Below, piece by piece: positions 6,613 to 61,612 of a stretch of 64,000 bases of DNA (positions are counted from its first letter, which is position 1; the number at the start of each line of letters is the position of its first letter). Below the pieces are notes generated by a model. It ran no database searches. It was not told the DNA's origin and was given only the letters and a program-made list of their open reading frames with translations. The position numbers and the translations under genes were made by a program. The stretch spans positions 48,007,220 through 48,071,219 of the forward strand of contig OX387186.1 of the NCBI GenBank assembly GCA_947561395.2, written 5' to 3'. This stretch comes from Buxus sempervirens. Its lineage: Eukaryota; Streptophyta; Magnoliopsida; Buxales; Buxaceae.

Positions 6613-7358
6613 CTAGGGAACTATGTTCTGAATGGCTTGTGCGGTTTCCCTCTCCATATTGGTAAAGTGATGGTATAACTGGCCATGTACACAGATGGGC
6701 CAATGTGGGTCCCTTCCTTCTGCTCGTGCCCTCTTTCGTTCAGCTTTCATGCCAAATAGCCTGGCATAGTCTTCAGGTTCAGGAACAAACCCCAATCCAA
6801 AGCCCACAGATTTGTCACATGGCTGGATTGCAAACTTGATGCCTTGCTTGTATTTGCCCAAACCATCTCCTACTCGGAGGCCCCAGTCGGCGCATTCAGC
6901 AGCACCGAACATGCTTTTCCTTTTCCTTCTGCGGGACAAGTCTGATTGCAGGGGAGTAGGAATGCGGTTTACTTGTACCATTTCAATGGCTTGGAAGTTT
7001 AGGGAAGTAGGCAGCTCATAATCAATCACAGGTACCCCTCCTTGTTCAAATTCTCTGTGATTTTCTGCATGAACCGTGATCAGTTGATTCCCCGAAATAA
7101 ATCGGATCATTCGATGTAAGGTAGACGGGACTGCCCCTGCTTGATGTTACCAAGGTCTTCCAATTAGCAAATTAAAGGAGGCATTGATGTCCATCAACTC
7201 GAAGGTGACGAAGAAGGCCCTTTCAGCAATTGTAACTTCCAGAGTAACTTCTCCAAGGGAATCCTTCTTGGCATTGTCAAACCCGCGGACATTATTGGAG
7301 TTAGGTTTGATCAAATCGGCGTTCAACTGCAGACTGTGGAAGGTCCTGACTGGGCAGA
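6613..7358 (-). pseudogene. Protease C-terminal half and G-patch-like segment
   Basis: Continuation of pol on the low-coordinate side of the nested insertion. From 7,358 down, the minus strand encodes the end of the aspartic protease fold, including an LLIGRPW block, then a TAA where the family usually has Ile. After that it stays open from 7,110 to 6,613. The open part contains GLGKYKQGI and FGLGFVP, the glycine spacing of a G-patch-like motif common after protease in Tat elements. The other half of the protease lies more than 6 kb away, across the solo LTRs. Confidence 0.75.
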
Positions 7359-7935
7359 TATTCTGTAACGCCCCGGATCCGAGTCACATGAAAAACCCGT
7401 AACTCGTCTCCAGAGGTTATTATAAAACACAGGATCGCAATATCAGAGTGAAGGAAAACATGAATACAACAATAACTATATAACAGAGTGCGCTAAAATA
7501 ATCCCAAACGAAAATAAACTCACATGACCAAGTAACTACCCGCAAGTATCGTCCTCTCCAGGAGCAGCTGAAAACAAAACAAAACAATACGGAATGAGAT
7601 ACGAATATCCCAGTGAGCAACACATGCATGCGCAAATACATTTATTTCAGTTCTAAAACATGCCACGGTTATAAACCATATACAATGATGATAACACACA
7701 TATTCCGAATAATCCGACTAAACTTCAATAATCCAATTCATATCAATGCGGAAAACCATCAGGTAAATCAAGCAATAACAATCCGTTTTCAATCCCGAAA
7801 CCATCGATAAAATAATGATTAACTGACAACAACATAGCAATTAATCATAATTTCGTATCTCAAGATATAATTCCAGATATACCAATGTCATATAACACAA
7901 AGTCTTCTCATAACCATGCCCACGCCTCCAAATGT

Positions 7936-8361
7936 ATATCCGGCCTACTCAGGGTTTCGGATATTGAAATGACTGCGTCATCCAATGCAGGCCTACTCCC
8001 CGGGTTTCTGCATTGACAACCAGGCCTACTCAGGGTTTCTGGTTGCTCTACACCGGCGGGAGGTACAATACCCAATAATCGGTAAATGATATTCCATGAA
8101 CCATAAATACCAACCAACCAGCGAATAAAACATATCACGTCAAACAAAATCAAATACCAACATTGGTCAATGTCATGACTATTGTTTAGTTGATAAATTA
8201 AACATGCCAAGTAGACACTCCACACCTCCATGTACACAGTTCCGGCCTACTCAGGGTTTCGGAAACTCTGAAATGACGGCCTACTCAGGGTTTCGTCATC
8301 CAATGCAGGCCTACTCAGGGTTTCTGCATTGACAACCAGGCCTACTCAGGGTTTCTGGCTG
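7936..8361. repeat. Hairpin array with a constant 15-nt loop and differing stems
   Basis: Seven inverted repeats, most around the identical loop GCCTACTCAGGGTTT. Stems: ATATCCG/CGGATAT (7,936-7,964), CAATGCAG/CTGCATTG (7,983-8,015, loop 17 nt), CAACCAG/CTGGTTG (8,017-8,045), TTCCG/CGGAA (8,240-8,264), ATGACG/CGTCAT (8,273-8,299), CAATGCAG/CTGCATTG (8,301-8,331) and CAACCAG/CTGGCTG with one mismatch (8,333-8,361). Around 7,968 an ATGAC/GTCAT pair has lost its loop. The two clusters (7.93-8.05 kb and 8.24-8.36 kb) are duplicates of each other. Confidence 0.9.
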
Positions 8362-9152
8362 CTCTACACCGGTCGTGGCAACACACAAGGCCATGCAATT
8401 CCAACAACCAACAAATAACATTACATTACTAAGCTTAGAATCTTGATCCAGGACAAGCTAAACCAGTAGTAAGTATAAAACTAGCAAATCAACCCAATGT
8501 ATTTTCCATCATGTAAAACTGATATATATAGATCAACATGTTCAAGTAAATCATTCCTGAAGTGCACCGTGCATTCAAAGGTGAACTAGCATAATAGTGT
8601 AGAGGTATTTCAGCAAAACAATATGGTTTCAAAACTGACTTTCAGAATAAAGCACATTATACAGAAGTGATTTCAACCTCCAAACTTCGATTAAACATAA
8701 TCCAGTAAAACAGCTCCTAGATTCTAAATTTCGCTTTCATAATCCAAATCAATCAAATGAATGTCATAAAACCCTGGAAACACATTTTGGATGAGTGGAA
8801 TAGTCTTAGGATCCCCTATAAGGTCACCATACCAAAAAGCAATCAATTTTGAGACAAAAAGTTTCGGACCTCAAAATATTCTAAGTCTGGTTAAAAACGT
8901 TGACTTTTGGTATATAATTTTTCTAGACAAATCTACAAGGAGTTTCGGGCTCAAATTTTTGTTGTAGTCTATTGAAGGGTAAACACATCTCCTAGAATTT
9001 TATGGGCTCCTGAATCACTCATCTGGGTATTAAACCCAAACCGGGCTTTGTGACAAAAACCGGGATTTAGGCATGAATTGGAAAGTTGACTTTTTATTGG
9101 CTGGGAATTAGACCTTGGGAGTATTTTTATTGGTTCCAAATGGGGGGTAAAA

Positions 9153-9235
9153 CCTTATTTACATGTAAAGACTTAAGTAAATGGAGCAATAAATACACAG
9201 AACATTTACTTAAATGTCTTTCATGTAATTAAAGG
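9153..9235. repeat. Long imperfect palindrome in outer family-B LTR
   Basis: The left arm contains TTACATGTAAAGACTTAAG followed by TAAATG. The right arm reads CATTTACTTAAATG and then TCTTTCATGTAA. Together they form a stem of about 25 bp around a 25-bp centre. The inner copy carries the same module near 11,575-11,645, and the two family-C LTRs carry a related version. Confidence 0.8.
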
Positions 9236-9283
9236 GGCTGTTTTCAACAAATTCTATAATTTGGTAAGTGTATTGGACTATGC

Positions 9284-9475
9284 GCTCACCTCCTGAAGTG
9301 GGCGCGAGCTGAGCGCCGGTCGGCGGTAAGAAAAAGGTAAAAATATACCTAGCGCTCACTCGACGCTAGGTGAGCGCGAGCTGAGCGCGAGACGGGCGTG
9401 AGGTGGGCGCGAGATGAGCGCCGGGTTTTCTAGTGAGCGCGAGCTGAGCGCCAGGTTCGCGCGAGCTCGGCGGTG
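9284..9475. repeat. GC-rich inverted repeats built on GAGCGC/GCGCTC
   Basis: The stretch is dense in GAGCGC and GCGCTC words in both orientations and forms short stems such as GCGCTCAC/GTGAGCGC (about 9,352-9,377, perfect 8 bp) and GCGCTCAC/GTGGGCGC. It contrasts strongly with the AT-rich surroundings. The inner copy has an equivalent stretch (about 11,735-11,880) with a different word, CGCCTAGG/CCTAGGCG. Confidence 0.75.
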
Positions 9476-9494
9476 GGTAGTATTTAACGGGGCG

Positions 9495-12400
9495 TTTAAC
9501 GCCCCGAACCCGAGTCTATGCAAAACAAGCACCAAACCCGAATCCGAAGTGATACTGGGCCCAAAGCTACTAATTACCAGACATTTAAATCCAACTAATT
9601 AGATTAACTATCAGAGTGCGGAAATTTAAAACAATAATTTCATCAATATACGTGGCTAACTATAACCATTAAACTAACTCATCCATATCAATTCATAAAT
9701 CTGGTAAATGGGTTTTCTAGCACACTTTCTCTCATATTCAATTTAATCATAAAATATCCATGAAGATACATCTACATCAACCTCTAAAAGAAAGATCCAA
9801 ATGAAATAATAAAGATCCTCTGCTCAAGAATCTGCGACTTCCCCTCGAGTCAACCCCAAGGACGCTCTCCCGTGAAACAGCTGAAAAATAAGATAATGAA
9901 GTAGGGTGAGATACAACTATCTCAGTAGGTAACACATGCATGCTAGAAACAGTTTATATATAAAAGTAATCATTCATGCACGATAAAATAATCAGGTAGT
10001 CACGGTCGATAATAAGAACGATTAATCACCATATGAAACCAAAATCTAATCAGGGTTCGGAATAAAGAGAGTTCATTATGTAACCTTCGTTTCAATTAGA
10101 AAGGCAATATAATATAAATCAAACTCTTCTGATTCAAATGTAGATCATGTCATTCATAATTAATAGTAAGTCTCCATCTGATAACAACATTCTCCCATGT
10201 AGGATGCAATCACGCAGTAATCACATCTACCCTACATGAGGTCTCTCCCGCAGGAGTCATCATATCTCACCCGCAGGTGGTCACATCTCACCCGCAGGTG
10301 GTAATCACATACATCTCCCTTGTGGGATGCAATCACATCGTGATTACATCTCCCCCACAAGAGGTCACATCTCTCCCGCAGGAGGTCACATATCTCCCCT
10401 GTGGGATGCAATCCAATCAGGATCACATCTCCCCCAACAGGAGTTCTCATCATCTCACCCGCAGGTGGTCTCTCCCCTGTGGGATGCAATCCAATCAGGA
10501 CCACATCTCCCCCAACAGGAGGTCTCATCTCTCCCGCAGGAGGTCATCTCACCCGCAGGTGGTCTCTCCCCTGTGGGATGCAATCCAATCAGGATCACAT
10601 CTCCCCCAACAGGAGGTCTCATCTCTCCCGCAGGAGGTCTCTCCCCTGTGGGATGCAATCCACTCAGGATCACATCTCCCCCAACAGGAGGTCTCATCTC
10701 ACCCGCAGGTGGTCTCTCCCCTGTGGGATGCAATCCAATCAGGATCACATCTCCCCCAACAGGAGGTCTCATCTCACCCGCAGGTGGTCTCTCCCCTGTG
10801 GGATGCAATCCAATCAGAATCACATCTCCCCCAACAGGAGGTCTCATCTCTCCCGCAGGAGGTCATCTCACCCGCAGGTGGTCACATATCTCATCCGCAG
10901 ATGGTACAATCTCTTATAGCCATCATGGCATTCGGTCAACGGTCCAATTATATTTTCAGAAGGAAATTACCTATATAGAATCCTTATAACCATTTCAAGT
11001 GAATTTGATCCTCTTTAAACCCCAAATTGTACTAAATCATAAAACAAGGCAGTTAAATATCTAGTATAAACTTTTTAGTGTAATTGGACTTCAGGGACAC
11101 CTTAAGAATAATCTTAGAGAAGTGTTACAAGGGGTGGAAATCCAAATATCCTATTTTATAATGATTTGGGACTAAGAATGTCATAAAGTTCTCAAAATAC
11201 ATTTTGGATTAGTGAAATAGTCTTAGGGTCCCTAATAGGGTCACCATACCAATAATCAATCAATTCTAAGACAAAAAGTTTCGGACCCCAAAAATATTCT
11301 AAGTCTAGTTAAAAACGCTGACTTTTGGTATATAATTTTTCTAGACAAATCGACAAGGAGTTTCGAGCTCAAATTTTGGTTGTAGTCTATTGAAGGGTAA
11401 ACACATCTCCTACAATTTTATGGGCTCCTGAATCACTCATCTGGGTATTAAACCTAAACCGGGCTTTTTGATAAAAACCGGGATTTAGGCATGAACTGGA
11501 AAGTTGACTTTTTATTGGCTGGGAATTAGACCTTGGAAGTATTTTTATTGATTCCAAATGGGGGGTAAAACCTTATTTACATGTAAAGACTTTAGTAAAT
11601 GGAGCAATAAATACACAGGACATTTACTTAAATGTCTTTCATGTAATAAGGGTGCTATGCGAGAGGCTTGGGTTGTCTGGGAAAAGGTTGGAGAAGAAAA
11701 GGGGATGAAAAACTGTCGAAATTGCATTTTTTTGCTAGAGCGCCTAGGATCGCTCAGGATCGCCTAGGCGGTCAAAGGTCGGCGGTAGTACAAAATAGGT
11801 CGCCTGCGGTCCGTCGTCCCGTGGTCTCCGGCGTCCTCAATTTTTATAACTAGCGCCGAGGATCGCCGAGCGCAGAGAGGTAGGTGGTCTCCCAAAAACG
11901 AACATAAAATGTTTAGAAATCTGATTTTTCATGTCCAGGATGATTCTAACATAATTATATGAATGATATCAAGCTAAATACATGTATATATAACACTAAA
12001 ACATGCAATACAATCGATTAACCTCCAAAACACAAAACGAAACAAAAATCGGTGCTACCTACCTCTTGAACGTGTGCTCTCCTCTTCCTTCTCTAAATAG
12101 CAACACTCAGACTCAAAAGCACTCCTTTGGGATGAAGAAAACCAGAGCAACCTCTTCCTCCTTCTTTGGTCGTTCTTACCGTCGCTCTCCGTCGTGCGGC
12201 TAACAAATACGAGCAAGTCTTCCCAACCTATTCGTTTAGGTCATTTTAGTGTATTTATATACCTACGATTCCATGCAATGCATGTGTATCAAACTCCACA
12301 CATTGCCCAATCAAAATACATTAGCTTTAAAATATTAATCTTACTGCGATAACTCGCGATCAGACGCTCCGATCTGCACCAAACTCCTGATCTTCACTAA

Positions 12401-12504
12401 TACCGATATTCTCTACAATATTAAATTATTTCAATCCATAATAATCCTCAAGAATATTAATTATTATTTTTATTTTAATATTTGGGAAAATTCGGGGTTT
12501 TACA
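9495..12504 (+). mobile_element. Family-B solo LTR (inner), nested in the outer copy
   Basis: It begins TTTAACGCCCCG, aligning to TGTAACGCCCCG of the outer copy, and ends GGTTTTACA. Length is 3,010 bp. The flanks GGGCG (9,490-9,494) and AGGCG (12,505-12,509) are a 4-of-5 target duplication. It aligns to the outer copy along most of its length, with the strongest match 11,180-11,655 against 8,760-9,240. It differs mainly in the hairpin array, which is 75-bp-periodic here. No internal coding region, so a solo LTR. Confidence 0.82.
10196..10905. repeat. 75-bp minisatellite made of two hairpin classes
   Basis: About eight tandem units with 75-bp period, some truncated. Small hairpins have the constant loop CGCA and stems CTCC/GGAG (10,245-10,256), CACC/GGTG (10,268-10,279) or CATC/GATG (10,892-10,903). 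Larger hairpins enclose a GATGCAATC-type loop with stems CATGTAGG/CCTACATG (10,196-10,238), CTTGTGGG/CCCACAAG (10,319-10,361) and repeated CCTGTGGG/CCCAACAGG. Long ORFs across this stretch on both strands arise only because the period is a multiple of three. Confidence 0.88.
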
Positions 12505-13422
12505 AGGCGCCTACCTCTTAGGTGAGCGCCAGTGAGCGCGAGGTGAGCGGATACCCCTATGATTTTCATTTCTCTGTTATTTCAAGATCTACATGACTGG
12601 CCGGTTTGTTTATCTCTGTAATTGTTCCACTACACTCCTAATACTCCCAGAAGACTTCCCAACCATATTTGGATTTAATCTAAACACTTTTAAATCAATG
12701 ATAAAATTCAATCTCCGAACTCTGTTCATGTCATTTCCAGAAAACCAGAAAACTCATACATCTTTTAAGATACAAAACATGCATCAGAATAAGCTCACAA
12801 AAACCTCAAACACAAAACCCAGTTGTAAATCAGTGCTACTCACCGTATGCGCTTAATCCCAGAACAACAGCATCTTCCACAACCGGCCGAGCACGACTCC
12901 GGCTGCGCGCGAAGATGAAATGGTAGCCGCACGAATCCTCTGCTCACGAGAGAAATAACCCGCAGAAATCCGACTCCAATAACCTCCTAGTATTTCTTCC
13001 GATTCTTGTTCTTCACGGGAATAACCCTAATCGCCATTAATAGCTGCAATCGCCAAGTCGCCCAGTTCTCCAGATAACGAGACTAACGAAAATATTTCCA
13101 TAAGTACGATACGAGTATTCGTTTAAACCCAAACCCTAATTTCCCCTTTTGGTATATTTACCTTGCGCTACATACGCCGCTCGATAACTCTTTAAACCCT
13201 TGATCCTATGCGCGCTCACCCACTGGAAACCCTACATGTTCCGGCCACTTAGGTTATTCTCTTTGACAACTAATGACCACAAATCTCCAGCAATAAATAA
13301 ATTTTGATCAAGCCTGTCCATAAATCCATGTGTTCATACTTTTGCATATATTTTATTTTATCTACTATTTTATATTGTTTATTATTATTATTATTTTTTC
13401 TACTCAAAACTGGGGTCTTACA
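12505..13422 (+). mobile_element. 3' remainder of the outer family-B LTR
   Basis: Resumes the outer LTR after the inner insertion, starting with GAGCGC-rich sequence like that at 9,420-9,475 and ending in a T-rich tract and GGTCTTACA. No gene is seen. The middle part (12,840-13,250) is GC-moderate and lacks conserved reading frames. Confidence 0.75.
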
Positions 13423-13427
13423 TATTC

Positions 13428-16013: not shown

Positions 16014-16610
16014 TTGATCTATTTTAGCCGAATGGCTGGGAAAGAGAACCCAGTTTAAGCTGATCTGTTTTAGCCGAATGGCTGGGAAAGAGAACCCAAT
16101 TTAAGCTGATCTGTTTTAGCCAAACGGTTGGGGGAGAGAACCTGGTTTAAGCTAGTCTATTTTAGCCAAACGGCTGGGAAAGAGAATCCGGTTTAGACTG
16201 GTCTGTTTTAGCCAAACGGCTGGGAAAGAGAACCCGGTTTAGACTGGTCTGTTTTAGCCAAACGGCTGGGGGAGAGAACCCGGTTTAGACTGGTCTGTTT
16301 TAATCAAATGGTTGGGGGAGAGAACCCTAAGCTGATCTGTTTTAACCAAATGGTTGGGGGAGAGAACCCAGTTTAGACTGGTCTATTTTAGCCAAACGGC
16401 TGGGAGAGAGAACCCGATTTAGACTGGTCTGTTTTAGCCAAACGGCTAGGAGAGAGAACCCGATTTAGACTGGTCTGTTTTAGCCAAACGGCTGGGAAAG
16501 GGAACCCGATTTAGACTGGTCTATTTTAGCCAAGCGGCTGGGGGAGAGAACCCGGTTTAGACTGGTCTGTTTTAGCCAAACGGCTGGGAAAGGGAACCCG
16601 ATTTAAAAGG
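16014..16610. repeat. 46-bp tandem array in the Ogre leader
   Basis: About 12-13 units of 46 bp built on GGTCTGTTTTAGCCAAACGG followed by CTGGGAAAGAGAACCCGG. Units vary by a few substitutions; one near 16,320 is shortened. It lies between ORF1 and gag on the transcribed strand. Confidence 0.9.
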
Positions 16611-17209: not shown

Positions 17210-17840
17210 GATTGGGTGTTCTTTATTCAGAACCCTGGGGTTTTAAGACTTAAGCTTGAAACTTGAAAGTTTGAGAGTTAATAAGGATAGGGTGTTCTTT
17301 ATTCAGAACCCCTGGGTTTAAAGATTCTTTTGGCAAGTTTTTTATTCAGATTGCCTGAAATTTTTAGAGTTGATTGCAAAAATGGGGTGTTCTTTATTTA
17401 GAACCCTTAAAGATTTAAGATTTAAACAATTTGGTGAGTTCTTTACTCAGATCGCCTAAAAATTTTAGAGTTAATTGCAAAAATGGGGTGTTCTTTATTT
17501 AGAACCCTTTGCTTTAAAGATTTAAAAGAATTTGGCGAGTTCTTTACTCAGATCGCCTGAAAATTTTAAATTGGGTGTTCTTTATTCCGAACCCTTAAAG
17601 GTTTAAGACTCAAATTTGAAATTGATAATTTCTGAAGATTTGAAAGTTGGTAAGAATTGGGTGTTCTTTATTCAGAACCCTTAAAGATTTAAGTTTTAAA
17701 TTCAGAATTGATAATCTCTAAAGATTTGAAAGTTGGATAGGAATTGGGTGTTCTTTATTCAGAACCCATGGGTTCAACGATTAAAAAATTTTGGCGAGTT
17801 CTTTATTCAGATCGCTTGAAAATTTGGAAGTTAATGGATT
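17210..17840. repeat. Irregular array of GGGTGTTCTTTATTCAGAAC words
   Basis: About nine occurrences of GGTGTTCTTTATTCAGAACC, alternating with the related GGCGAGTTCTTTATTCAGAT, spaced 50-110 bp apart. This is the third consecutive repeat block in the leader. Confidence 0.8.
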
Positions 17841-18130: not shown

Positions 18131-19412
18131 CTAGTTTTTATGCTCGGAATCCACGTATGCACGGTGGATCCGAGAATGAGATTCCCGCAGTTTGGCCACC
18201 CTATCCCTGTATGTGTCAGGGGGCGAAACTGGGATATCGTCAGAGGTGATGATATGGAGAGGAGGTGGGCTGTCTAGGCCAGTTTCTCGAGCAATCCATT
18301 GTTCGTAATTACGAACATCGGATGCAGTGAAAATGTCCTCTTGGAGTATTTGCACGTGTTGCCATTCCTTCACCAATTTTTTCTTCAATTCCCATGTAAG
18401 TGGGCCAGTTAATCCTTTCGCCTCATCCTTGATCGGTATTCCCTGAGACTTCCCAAACTGTCTCAGAATTCGAACCGGATAGTATGGCATGGCATGAGTC
18501 AAGCCTATAAAGGCTAGGCAATGTCTTTTCCTGAAAGCTATGACGGGAGTATATATTTGGTCAAATGTGCCTCCCCATCTTATATCCATTTCTCCTTTCA
18601 GTTGGAGAAAGTGGTCAAACCAGTCCTCTCTGGAGGGTAAGTCTGGTCTAATCTCTCTTCGGGCCATCAATGTGACATTGTCACGGACGTACCCATAACG
18701 TGGGCTGACAAGTTCAGCAACCATCAGGTAATCTTGAAGCCAAATGTGTAGGAGAGGAGCGCATCCCTGAAACCTCCTAGTTCCATTCTTGGTCATGGTA
18801 TAGCTGAGTAAGAATCAGTGGCGCAATCCGGAATTTCACTTGGAGTTGGTCTACAATTTCCATGAGGGCCAAATTAATGGTGTCTCCCCCAGTAGGAAAG
18901 AAGAGCTGTGATAGAACCACGAGGGTGAAGGTGTCCCACCAAACACGGGGTCTTTCCTAATTTTTGTCCCTTATCTTTTCAGCAAGGAAGGTTTTAGAGA
19001 CCCGAGTGAATGCTTAGTCACCTCCTAAGGTCTGGAATTCTCCTCTGGATAGGCCAAAGAAAGTACAAGCTTCATTCTTGTAGCTATCTTTGAGGTTTGG
19101 CCTGGCTGGTTCTCCATGGTCACGGAATCGGAGGAATAGTTCGAATTCCTCAATTGTGGGTGTCAACTCATTAGTTCCAAACCTAAAGAGTGAAAGCTGG
19201 GGATCCCAGAAAGGTAGAGCCGCCTGAATCATGTCCCAATTAATGGGCCCATTTAAGAGGGATAGAGTTTGTCCCATGTGGTATTTCTATTCCCAATGAA
19301 TTTGCTCATCTCCTTGTAATTGCCTTGTCCAAGAATGGATCCAAGGGGTATCAAAGGCACACTTCTCTATCCTAGGGAAGCGAACTCTCTCAGTCGAGGA
19401 TGAAGATGCCAT
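18131..19412 (-). pseudogene. ORF1 upstream of gag (Ogre-type, function unknown)
   Basis: Extra protein encoded between the 5' LTR and gag. From a Met at 19,412 the frame starts with a Ser-rich N-terminus. After a TAG the 19,277-19,014 segment shows FWDPQLSLFRFGTNELTPTI, a signature I associate with the plant domain of unknown function DUF7745. Two more stops and a frameshift near 18,790 follow. The 18,796-18,131 segment then begins TRRFQGCAPLLHIWLQDY and ends in a hydrophilic tail. ORF1 in this position is typical of Ogre elements; its role is not known. The fragmentation matches the rest of the element. Confidence 0.78.
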
Positions 19413-20700: not shown

Positions 20701-20718
20701 TCCCCAGTGGAGTCGCCA
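20701..20718 (-). other. Primer-binding site of the Ogre-type element
   Basis: On the minus strand TGGCGACTCCACTGGGGA begins three bases after the LTR end (20,722). Ogre elements are reported to use an Arg tRNA primer. I cannot verify the exact tRNA match here, but the TGG start and the position are right. Confidence 0.8.
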
Positions 20719-25215: not shown

Positions 25216-25815
25216 AAAGAATGAGAAATTTCTAAAATTCAGAGGCTTTTAAACGGCTCAAAAAGGTTGTGTCTAAAATTCAGAGGCTTTTAGACGGCCC
25301 AAAGTATATATGTCTATAATTCAGAGGCTTATAGACAGCCCAAAAAGGTTGTGTCTAAAATTCAGAGGCTTTTAGACGGCCCAAAGAAATGATTTGTCTA
25401 ATATTCAGAGGCTTTTAGACGGCCCAAAGAAAAGATTTGTCTAAAATTCAGAGGCTTTTAGACGGGCCATAGAAATGATTTGTCTAAAATTCAGAGGCTT
25501 TTAGACGGCCCAAAGAAATGATTTGTTTAAAATTCAGAAGCTTTTAGACGGCCCAAAGAAATGATTTGTCTAAAATTCAGAGGCTTTTAGACGGCCCAGG
25601 ATATTTTTAAAAAAAGGTCTAAAATTCAAAGGCTTTCAGAGGCCCAAGGATTTTTTTGAAATATATCTGAAATTCAAAGGTTTTCAGAGGCCCAGGGATA
25701 TTTTTGAAAAATGTCTGAAATTCAAAGGCTTTCAGGGGCCCGGGTAAAGTCTGAAATTCAAAGACTTTCAGAAGCCCAAAGGTATTTTTGAAAAAGGTCT
25801 GAAAGCCTTTCACAT
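25216..25815. repeat. About 43-bp tandem array (TTCAGAGGCTTTTAGACGGC)
   Basis: About 13 units of TCTAAAATTCAGAGGCTTTT followed by AGACGGCCCAAAG, degenerating to the right into TCTGAAATTCAAAGGCTTTC units. It sits upstream of the minus-strand gag fragment, the same relative place as the arrays in the Ogre leader. Confidence 0.9.
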
Positions 25816-59408: not shown

Positions 59409-59810
59409 ATGTGGGATGCAATCACGCATAATCACGTCTCCCCCACATGAGGAACTTCTCCTGTAGGATGCAATCCATCGGAAATACATCTGCCCCACAG
59501 GAGATAATGAATCTCTCCCGCAAGAGGTAATGTCTTCACCATCAAGCGGGTATGGGTCTCCGCCACCAAGCGGGTAATCTCTGCCACCAAGCAGGTTGGG
59601 TCTCCGCCACCAAGCGGGTTAGGGTCTCCGCCACCAAGCGGATAATCTCCGCCACCAAGTGGGTTAGGGTCTCCGCCACCAAGCAGGTAATCTCTGCCAC
59701 CAAGCAGGCTAGGTCTCCGCCACCAAGCGGGTTAGGGTCTCCACCACCAAGCGGGAAATAATCTCTGCCACCAAGCAAGTAATATACAATACATCTCTGC
59801 CACCAAGCAG
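59409..59810. repeat. CACCAA-loop hairpin array
   Basis: The first two large hairpins are ATGTGGG/CCCACAT (59,409-59,448) and CTCCTGT/ACAGGAG (59,458-59,503). About thirteen small hairpins follow with constant loop CACCAA and stems CCGC/GCGG (59,560-59,573) or CTGC/GCAG (59,581-59,594), alternating along 59,530-59,810. Confidence 0.88.
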
Positions 59811-61612
59811 ATTATTAATAAAACTAGCCACCAAGCCATTATATCAGAAATCTGTATTTCATTGCTGTTTGTATCATTGTTGATTTATGTTTCAATCATT
59901 AATCCAAAGTCTTGTTCCAAATTCAGTTCATTAGTTTGTAATCACGATGGCCTGGTCTAGTTATGTGATAATTAAAGGTTATGTAAAGTTATAAAGTAAT
60001 TTAAAGAATAAAGTTTAGGGGTAATAAGATACTGCTATTTACATAAGTTTAGGGTTAATATGGTTCTTGCTATTTAATAAGAAGTTCAGGTTGAATTTAG
60101 GGGTAGTGACATAGTATAATAAGGTACTTGTTTTAGTAGAGAAACTTAGAGTAGACCAATTCAATTAATTAATGAGGCCTAAAGGTATACAGGGTCCTTT
60201 CTCCAATATCTATAAGGTTATTTCTGGTTTAAAGTTTCTACCTGTAGAAATCTGGTTGCTGATATATAAATTAACGTCTCTTAATTAGTTATTCTAATTT
60301 ATAAGGGTTTATCTGCATTAAACTTAGAGTTTCTTGTTTAAGATCAAATTTAGGCAACTAATTACCTAAAATACTCCCTATTTATTTTTTTTGCCAAAAC
60401 AGGGTATTTGATAATTTATTTTAGTCTTTAAACATCTTAATGAATGATTAAAATTGATTAAAAATGGTTTAGAATTAAATCTGGAATTAAATATGCAAAA
60501 TTTGTATTTTTCTGCACTGAGCACTCAGGATCGCCTATGAACGCACGAACAGAGGTAGGTAGCACTCGTTTTGCCGTTCATTTTGTGTTCTTGGTTACTT
60601 GATTCGTGTTTGCATGTTTTATATATGTCTTTATATGTATTTAGTATGATATTGATCTTATATATATGCTAGAAACTTTTAGAACTCAAGAAAAGGGTTT
60701 TGATACAATCGGATTCACGTTTCCCATAGACCGTCAAGCTCACTGTGCTCAGCGCTCCTGGGCACTGTTCGGCGCTCGTACGAAATCTTAGACCGCCGAC
60801 GACTGCTAATTGAAATATAGTTGGCACTCAAATTTCAACTACCGCCGACCATTGACCACCTATCACTCAAAGAAATCAACGATCAACTCTCTTTCTCTCT
60901 CTCTCCTTCTTCCTCTTCTTCTTTTCTAGTTGCTGGTCTCTCTCTCCCTTTCGTTTTTCTCTTTCGGCCGTCTATCACTCAAACCAAATACAATACGATG
61001 GACAAATACGCTTAGCATTCCTCTAGGATATAAAACCCTATTATTTTATACCCCACAATCCTATGCCACGCACATGCATCACCAATTAGATACTCATCCA
61101 ATTAGAACACAGTTTCAGATTTATTTGTTCTTACCTCGATCTATCACGATCCAATGGTCAGATCTGCGCCACTCTCCTGATCTCCCCTATCATTGTGATC
61201 TTCTATAATTATAATTAAAATCCTTCAATAGAATTCTAGTCTCCTCAACTTAAGGCTCCAAATCAAACATTATTACCAATATGCCCTTATTCCAATTATT
61301 AAGCTTTAAATATCATTGTTAATAGGCAATCTGAAACCAACTGATGTCTATCATCCTTTCTTTTTTTTTTTTGGTAATACTATCATCCTTTCTTATGTTC
61401 AATAATAATTTGATTGATGTATTTAATTATCTACCGGTAATTAATATGAATTGACCGAAATACCCATCTCTTGATAATTTTACATCTACATACTCAATTT
61501 CTTCCAAGATTTCTAAGTTTATTCTCTAATTTATTTTGACAAGTTTATTGACATACCCAATATTCAAATTTAGTTATTATTTATTTATTTGCTGAAAATT
61601 AGGAGTTTTACA
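59409..61612 (+). mobile_element. Family-B LTR, copy 3, 5'-truncated
   Basis: Starts inside the hairpin array (ATGTGGGATGCAATCACGC, matching 10,200-10,220). It continues through sequence collinear with the other family-B copies, including the CAGGATCGCCTA word near 60,528, and ends GAGTTTTACA at 61,612. The 5' end is missing. No coding region. Confidence 0.72.

Follow-up and report, generated by a model that had tools for sequence, protein, structure and literature searches.

A constant loop on differing stems: a hairpin array in a Ty3/gypsy LTR of Buxus sempervirens and its possible role in marking unspliced RNA

Positions 7936 to 8361 of a 64-kb stretch of Buxus sempervirens DNA (the window, meaning the whole stretch that was analysed) raise the question of why an array of hairpins should keep a single loop while the stems around it differ. 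The loop GCCTACTCAGGGTTT was present as six exact 15-nt copies at 7943, 8024, 8245, 8279, 8309 and 8340, and matches with up to two mismatches numbered 6 in the 64 kb versus 0.09 expected from shuffles. The exact-loop scan of the window detected no other loop of at least 10 nt with at least three hairpins and at least two stems, and the same scan detected a comparable constant-loop, different-stem array in 0 of 8 resampled windows. By these two comparisons the pattern described in an earlier note, a constant loop on differing paired stems, was confirmed. That note had counted seven inverted repeats around an identical 15-nt loop, which was correct for six, while the seventh loop (7991-8007) was a 17-nt variant, GCCTACTCCCCGGGTTT. 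The perfect arms of the seven hairpins were, in order, 7, 8, 7, 5, 6, 8 and 4 bp long; the hairpin with 4-bp arms (8333-8361) became a 7-bp stem when one G.U pair on the minus strand was included, and the one with 5-bp arms alternatively extends to 7 bp if a single bulged base is allowed at 8264.

The hairpins were arranged in two copies of one module (7930-8056 and 8230-8372), identical at 118 of 123 aligned bases. Since one copy holds three and the other four hairpins of the same four-hairpin module, the seven hairpins are not independent and represent four hairpin positions, all assigned to the minus strand. Module 1 (7936-8045) contained hairpins 1, 3 and 4 and a loopless hairpin 2. Directly from the sequence, hairpin 1 was placed at 7936-7964 (ATATCCG/CGGATAT, 15-nt loop), hairpin 3 at 7983-8015 (CAATGCAG/CTGCATTG, with the 17-nt loop variant) and hairpin 4 at 8017-8045 (CAACCAG/CTGGTTG). 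An extra, eighth palindrome at 7969-7981, ATGACTGCGTCAT (ATGAC-TGC-GTCAT), was hairpin 2 minus its loop, and a loop-bearing copy was found at L044:1406. Module 2 (8238-8361) contained all four hairpins, which were assigned using the sequence together with genome copies: hairpin 1 at 8238-8267 (AGTTCCG/CGGA(A)ACT, bulge at 8264), hairpin 2 at 8273-8299 (ATGACG/CGTCAT, extended by two G.U pairs on the sense strand), hairpin 3 at 8301-8331 (arms as in module 1, with the second pair from the loop being A:T or C:G across copies) and hairpin 4 at 8333-8361 (CAACCAG/CTGGCTG, with one internal G.U on the sense strand). The sequence of hairpin 1 differed between the two modules and its pairing was retained.

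Several simple explanations were rejected. The earlier note had allowed that the stems might be fragments of one larger repeat unit; a duplicated four-hairpin module does exist, but its four stems are unlike each other, and the stems are not mere pieces of a larger repeat. A known RNA family was rejected on searches with Rfam covariance models, which for positions 6900-9600 gave 0 matches with an E-value of up to 1, and 0 at gathering score across the window. DNA-binding palindromes were rejected because the palindromic arms are the part that varies, and loop-loop kissing was rejected as the loop contained, by eye, no palindrome of at least 6 nt. Among viral contigs the exact loop was found in 19 stretches with one match each, which was read as chance, and a search of papers for the loop letters found none.

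The array lies in a solo Ty3/gypsy LTR on the minus strand (LTR A, 7364-13422), bounded by TATTC at 7359-7363 and 13423-13427, a perfect target duplication of 5 bp. On its sense (minus) strand LTR A begins with TGTAAGACCCC and finishes with GGGGCGTTACA. It is split by a nested sister solo LTR on the same strand (LTR B, 9495-12504) with an approximate target duplication, GGGCG/AGGCG. The element class was read from a paired copy elsewhere in the genome (L065/L066), which was fetched as two loci with the 1.5 kb between them left out. Its LTRs were 98.2% identical across 2,538 bp with TG..CA ends; Retrotrans_gag and zf-CCHC followed the first LTR, and RT_RNaseH, Integrase_H2C2, rve and SH3_Tf2-1 preceded the second in that order; rve and, of two gag pieces, the first scored under the Pfam cut-off. 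A primer-binding site, TGGTATCAAAGC, which we take to be that of initiator Met tRNA, was located 4 bases past the LTR end, and a polypurine tract, AGGAGGGGAGGA, was located before the 3' LTR. Because this LTR pair encloses gag and pol, the host element is, as judged by LTR pair, domain order, primer-binding site and polypurine tract, a Ty3/gypsy LTR retrotransposon, and its sense strand is the minus strand of the window. On that strand the loop reads AAACCCUGAGUAGGC and can itself pair CCU/AGG. For the integrase end of this copy (L066:1483-1752), where a chromodomain would mark a Tekay-like chromovirus and which presumably has the look of one, Pfam gave SH3_Tf2-1 only and a solved-structure search gave no match.

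To place the array in its genome, exact loops were counted in the 676.5-Mb assembly, which gave 11,578 (5,801 + 5,777), while the reversed pattern gave 0. Among the matches listed, 46 loop clusters were on contig 1; 40 regions holding 41 clusters were fetched and five were left out. The module alignment had 41 rows, namely 39 loci with L063 entered twice plus module 2 of the window, and L061 was not included. In these 41 aligned modules each hairpin position mostly retained its own stem. Commonest haplotypes were ATGACG/CGTCAT for hairpin 2 (28 rows) and CAGCCAG/CTGGTTG (24 rows), and hairpin 3 was CAATGCAG/CTGCATTG in 14 rows and CAATGCCG/CGGCATTG in 5. The pair 8307/8325 (C:G in 16 and A:T in 15 of 41) was the sole strongly two-state pair within one hairpin position, a scarcity that counts against selection on the fold. 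The copies compared are related to one another, and divergence was measured on 36 of the 41 rows after the near-identical L036, L037, L066, L038 and L045 were dropped. The mean distance from the majority was 0.043 for the loop, 0.057 for the stem, and 0.084 and 0.142 for the flanks, the loop conservation being overstated because the copies had been picked for holding an exact loop. The module flanks as a neutral yardstick were dropped because the similarity between them was marginal (10, 144, 147 and 37 of 500 shuffles scored as high in four comparisons).

Whether the arms change together was examined with eleven distinct hairpins, picked by hand and aligned on the loop. Paired cells made up 93.5%, versus 63.9% after shuffling and 16-52% in slid versions, and the covariation score was 0.735 versus 0.197 for shuffled rows, with 0 of 500 shuffles equalling it. 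By subfamily, hairpin 1 was AGTTCC/GGAACT, ATATCC/GGATAT, ATTCC/GGAAT or AATCC/AGATT, the last with one C.A. Since these stems differ between subfamilies with pairing retained, homologous positions covary. Copies of hairpin 1 were matched 2,090 times genome-wide; among the 100 of these matches listed, most differences concerned the bulged base, which was T, A, C or missing, and the paired bases beside the bulge were fixed. At the level of sequence, the hairpin structure and the covariation of its stems are well supported. The suggestion of the earlier note that the transcript folds and is selected gained support from the covariation between subfamilies, from the freely varying unpaired bulge base and from five G.U pairs on the sense strand. 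A separate locus, L061:3332-3581, carried three hairpins of one kind (ATTCCG/CGGAAT) with the same loop at 117-118-nt spacing, one of them with two decayed pairs.

The five non-Watson-Crick stem positions were pairs 7 and 8 of hairpin 2, pairs 5 and 8 of hairpin 4 and pair 9 of hairpin 3; on the sense strand they were G.U in 36-40 of the 41 rows and A.C in none. When decayed pairs were summed by hand over the 41-row alignment, with the fixed pair 8335/8359 and the bulge column omitted, the sense strand had 41 G.U cells versus 23 A.C. Mean stem probability was 0.51 for sense versus 0.39 for antisense, and of 84 hairpins 45 had the higher value on the sense strand and 19 the lower; the set comprised 84 of 112 loop records, those with 15-nt loops and at least 5 paired or wobble positions, and 6 of the 112 were from the window. 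For the two modules of the window, folding favoured the plus (antisense) strand by a small margin, at -30.6 and -29.5 kcal/mol per 100 nt versus -27.1 and -27.4 for the minus strand, and the z-scores against shuffles were modest (-0.8 to -2.8). The one-sided G.U pairs and the stem probabilities point to sense RNA as the putative folding strand, while the plus-strand folding of the window's modules counts against it. In the surrounding element, array E (16018-16605) and array F (17285-17775) had compensated stems (AGCC/GGCT and AACC/GGTT; GGCAA/TTGCC and GGCGA/TCGCC), and their wobbles were mainly on the plus strand whereas the coding strand is the minus. In the arrays of LTRs B and J (the latter described below) the fifth pair was C.A on the sense strand in most units. 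Because of arrays E and F and of this fifth pair, the sense-strand wobble rule is not valid for every array, and the antisense-strand wobbles of E and F are unexplained by selection on sense RNA.

LTR B carries a sister array on its minus strand at 10190-10913, identified from the sequence and a genome search, in which the sense stems CACC/GGUG, CUCC/GGAG and CAUC/GAUG surround UGCG loops. Sense units ACCNNC-UGCG-GNNGAGAU numbered 3,541 genome-wide, while the reversed pattern gave 0. In the 100 units listed of these 3,541, the outer pair was A:T 72, T:A 27 and T.T 1 times, and the inner pair was C:G 81, T:A 12, C.A 6 and T.G 1 times. The compensated unit types AC/GT (58), TC/GA (23), AT/AT (11) and TT/AA (1) made up 93 of the 100 units listed; as four types cover so many, independent compensatory events must be few. 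The array folded with -42.3 kcal/mol per 100 nt in sense versus -31.9 in antisense. The sense loops C(UGCG)G presumably have the UNCG tetraloop form, a likeness which belongs to the LTR B array and not to the 15-nt loop of LTR A. That the same design recurs with another loop at the same place of a sister LTR is the strongest sign, as far as sequence can tell, that the design rather than the letters would be what matters. LTRs A and B shared 482 aligned bp at 92.7% identity (8759-9239 versus 11176-11656) and were otherwise hardly alignable; on this alignment the shared segment is a case of module exchange between LTR families. A further array, J (59520-59810), sits in a truncated sister LTR ending near 61612 and has the loop CACCAA (plus strand) with the stems CCGC/GCGG and CTGC/GCAG and half-changed intermediates; by hand count, and read on the sense strand, four half-changed stems had G.U and two had A.C. 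In LTR J the segment 60520-60760, with a donor-like GGTAGGTAGCAC (plus strand, 60554), was inverted relative to LTR B.

Motifs resembling splice sites surround both arrays. In LTR A, on the minus strand, a donor-like GTGAGT followed by AGCAC (12838-12843) and an acceptor-like TTTTCAG (7568-7574) were recognised as motifs in genome copies; in LTR B, on the same strand, a donor-like GTAGGT followed by AGCACC (12057-12062) and an acceptor-like TTTTCAG (9881-9887) were read from the sequence. The donor motif GGTGAGTAGCA[CT] was sought with one mismatch allowed within 1.7 kb before the array, and TTTTCAG was sought within 0.9 kb after it, both on the sense strand. The donor motif was found in 32 of 40 copies (0 of 40 with reversed letters and 0 of 40 on the other strand), the acceptor motif in 36 of 40 (controls, 2 of 40 and 1 of 40, respectively), and both together in 29 of 40. 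The donor was retained while the ends of exon 1 were variable. The distance from donor to acceptor was 1,371-2,234 nt in 28 copies (L063 was left out, as the pairing there spans two LTRs), and where an acceptor was present, in 36 of 40 copies, the array preceded it by 269-761 nt. Because it is flanked by a conserved donor and acceptor, the array is probably within a predicted intron of the LTR leader, and would be removed if this intron were spliced. According to part of one recent review, introns are generally absent from plant LTR retrotransposons, with exceptions including Ogre and EVADE (PMC12786077).

The other proposal of the earlier note was that one arm is continually rewritten from the other by templating, and single-arm changes were counted at the closing pair. 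In 159 scored cells of the 41-row alignment (5 gapped cells omitted), the sense 5' arm had changed in 8, the 3' arm in 12 and both in 0. Genome-wide, 70 double changes at the closing pair were observed versus about 44 expected if single-arm changes were independent (1.6 times), where the search pattern required that the eighth base after the loop be not A and the expectation used the 41-row rates among the 11,578 loops. By hand count 55 of these 70 were A..T, as expected from two deaminations, and G:C at the second pair was found 0 times genome-wide in the searched pattern. In L028, L032 and L040 chimeric hairpins combined the left arm of one position with the right arm of the next, as from a deletion between loops. 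Continuing arm rewriting was rejected, as stems were near-fixed per position in the 41 rows, both-arm changes were rare and the closing pairs of inserted copies decayed nearly independently; template switching may have acted when a stem was first made.

The reading we favour, with a confidence slightly better than even, is that the array is a multi-hairpin sense-RNA element under selection in a Ty3/gypsy LTR leader, that its loops are recognised, and that its likeliest role is to mark unspliced genomic RNA. The folded sense RNA would be the target of selection; the loop sequence would be the recognised part and the stem would need only to pair, and unrelated stems would arise by compensatory drift of hairpin copies with the loop held fixed. 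Since the array would be lost on splicing of the intron, the hairpins would label the unspliced RNA destined for packaging and reverse transcription, or help to retain it; and since the LTRs retain the intron, the RNA that is copied must be unspliced, which makes selection for packaging the likeliest role. The candidate reader would be the zinc-knuckle Gag protein that the element itself encodes or, alternatively, an RNA-binding protein of the host. We infer loop recognition and the packaging role from the arrangement of these features.

The closest rival to the packaging reading is control of splicing: by drawing the acceptor closer, for example, or masking a site, the hairpins would hinder or direct removal of the leader intron and leave part of the RNA unspliced, with loop identity mattering little for packaging. 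The placing of the array ahead of an acceptor, seen in 36 of 40 copies, and the conserved donor and acceptor fit this explanation, which leaves a constant loop rather than a constant stem unexplained unless a splicing factor reads the loop, and we consider it unlikely. It is quite unlikely that the array is a functionless by-product, in which palindromic tandem repeats of fast-evolving LTRs arose by chance and the module spread by copying or exchange. LTRs do swap modules, as in the segment common to A and B, and several other arrays of the window are hairpin-like, some with antisense-strand wobbles; such an origin is opposed by the compensated differences between subfamilies, the one-sided G.U pairs, the variable bulge beside fixed pairs and the presence of different loops at the corresponding place in two sister LTRs.

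Templated rewriting, by which template switches during DNA replication or reverse transcription would copy arm onto arm and so keep stems perfect without selection, appears decidedly improbable. In part of a report on RNA genes, template-switch events are inferred to make or mend perfect stems in one step (PMC8794818), and the likeness to the array lies in this route to perfect stems at one stroke. The stems of the four positions are unrelated to each other, recombination between loops is seen in the chimeric hairpins, and double changes at the closing pair are still 1.6 times the independent expectation. The Buxus copies differ from such a process in that they decay mostly in a single arm and keep the stems fixed per position; in the inserted copies the arms were not found to change jointly in single events, the 8 and 12 single-arm changes stand against 0 in both arms, most genome-wide doubles are A..T, second-pair G:C is absent from the searched pattern, and G.U fixed on one strand is not predicted. 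Very improbable, finally, is a silencing substrate, in which the hairpins would be sources of small RNAs, as proposed for maize Sirevirus LTR palindromes, and would be retained because of some other function in cis. For Dicer, hairpins with 6-8 bp of stem and a 15-nt loop are short. The part of PMC10760457 concerned describes small RNAs in excess at palindrome clusters of Sirevirus LTRs, and those palindromes have a constant stem, CACCGGACNNNGTCCGGTG, and a variable loop, the opposite of the arrangement here.

Retroviral psi consists of several stem-loops in the leader of an RNA that is packaged unspliced, and the Gag zinc knuckle reads the loops. The Buxus array is alike, in position and structure, as a set of stem-loops in the leader of an RNA that would need unspliced packaging, and differs in having four hairpins per module and one 15-nt loop, in the LTR before the primer-binding site. 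The maize LTRs of Sirevirus (Ty1/copia) contain, in the portion of the report available, clusters of short hairpin-forming motifs with many copies genome-wide (PMC10760457). The likeness lies in such clusters inside an LTR with many copies across the genome; the Sirevirus palindromes, as that portion describes them, keep the stem and have the loop NNN, whereas the Buxus array keeps the loop, differs in its stems, belongs to Ty3/gypsy and lies between splice sites (PMC10760457). The Sirevirus type, with a constant palindromic stem and a short variable loop in a Ty1/copia LTR, was not what was found here. In the long R regions of retroviral LTRs conservation is tied to stem-loops, and the sections available describe no constant-loop, different-stem arrays, unlike the Buxus array (PMC3601003). 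A constant-loop, variable-stem array in LTRs was not found in the literature searched, which comprised papers, in part, outside subscription. Rather little is said to be known of the packaged RNA of elements other than BARE, in the part of PMC3735527 concerned. How plant LTR retrotransposons discriminate genomic RNA from message is little known, and a leader intron with such an array would make the question testable. The thousands of natural variants with a constant loop and free stems form a large body of data with which the effects of RNA selection and of template switching could be told apart.

A more specific form of the packaging reading, which we hold to be unlikely, is that the leader-intron array could be a modular address tag, in which each subfamily would repeat a loop word particular to it (AAACCCUGAGUAGGC in A, UGCG in B and different words in further subfamilies) on freely evolving stems; a matching Gag would read it, only unspliced RNA of the right subfamily would be packaged, and loop words would change together as Gag and tag coevolve. 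In 5 of 41 rows hairpins 1-3 all had T instead of A at base 2 of the loop, and in 7 further rows only some hairpins had this change. Such joint changes within an array may fit a coevolving reader or conversion between loops alike.

Modules also differed from their LTRs in conservation. In relatives that are alike throughout, the module exceeded the remaining LTR in conservation by a small margin (L046, 88% versus 84-85%), which counts against the favoured reading, and in L030, L034, L038 and L048 it was far better conserved (96-97% versus 72-81%); the high identity in these four may be due to module exchange or, alternatively, to strong selection. Three identical modules on contig 1 (L035, L036 and L037) were 61,027-61,028 bp apart, a spacing that may reflect a large tandem duplication or an assembly effect.

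The element around LTR A lies on the minus strand and contains RT-RNase H, a second RNase H-like domain and integrase, and we take it to be Tat-like. At 18131-18814 an ORF before gag gave weak matches to DUF7745 and a plant mobile domain, below the Pfam cut-offs, and TGGCGACTCCACTGGGG on the minus strand at 20702-20718 presumably resembles a tRNA-Arg primer site. Another array of the window, at 25228-25760, has the loop TTCAGAGGC with the stems GTCTAAAA/TTTTAGAC and GTCTATAA/TTATAGAC.
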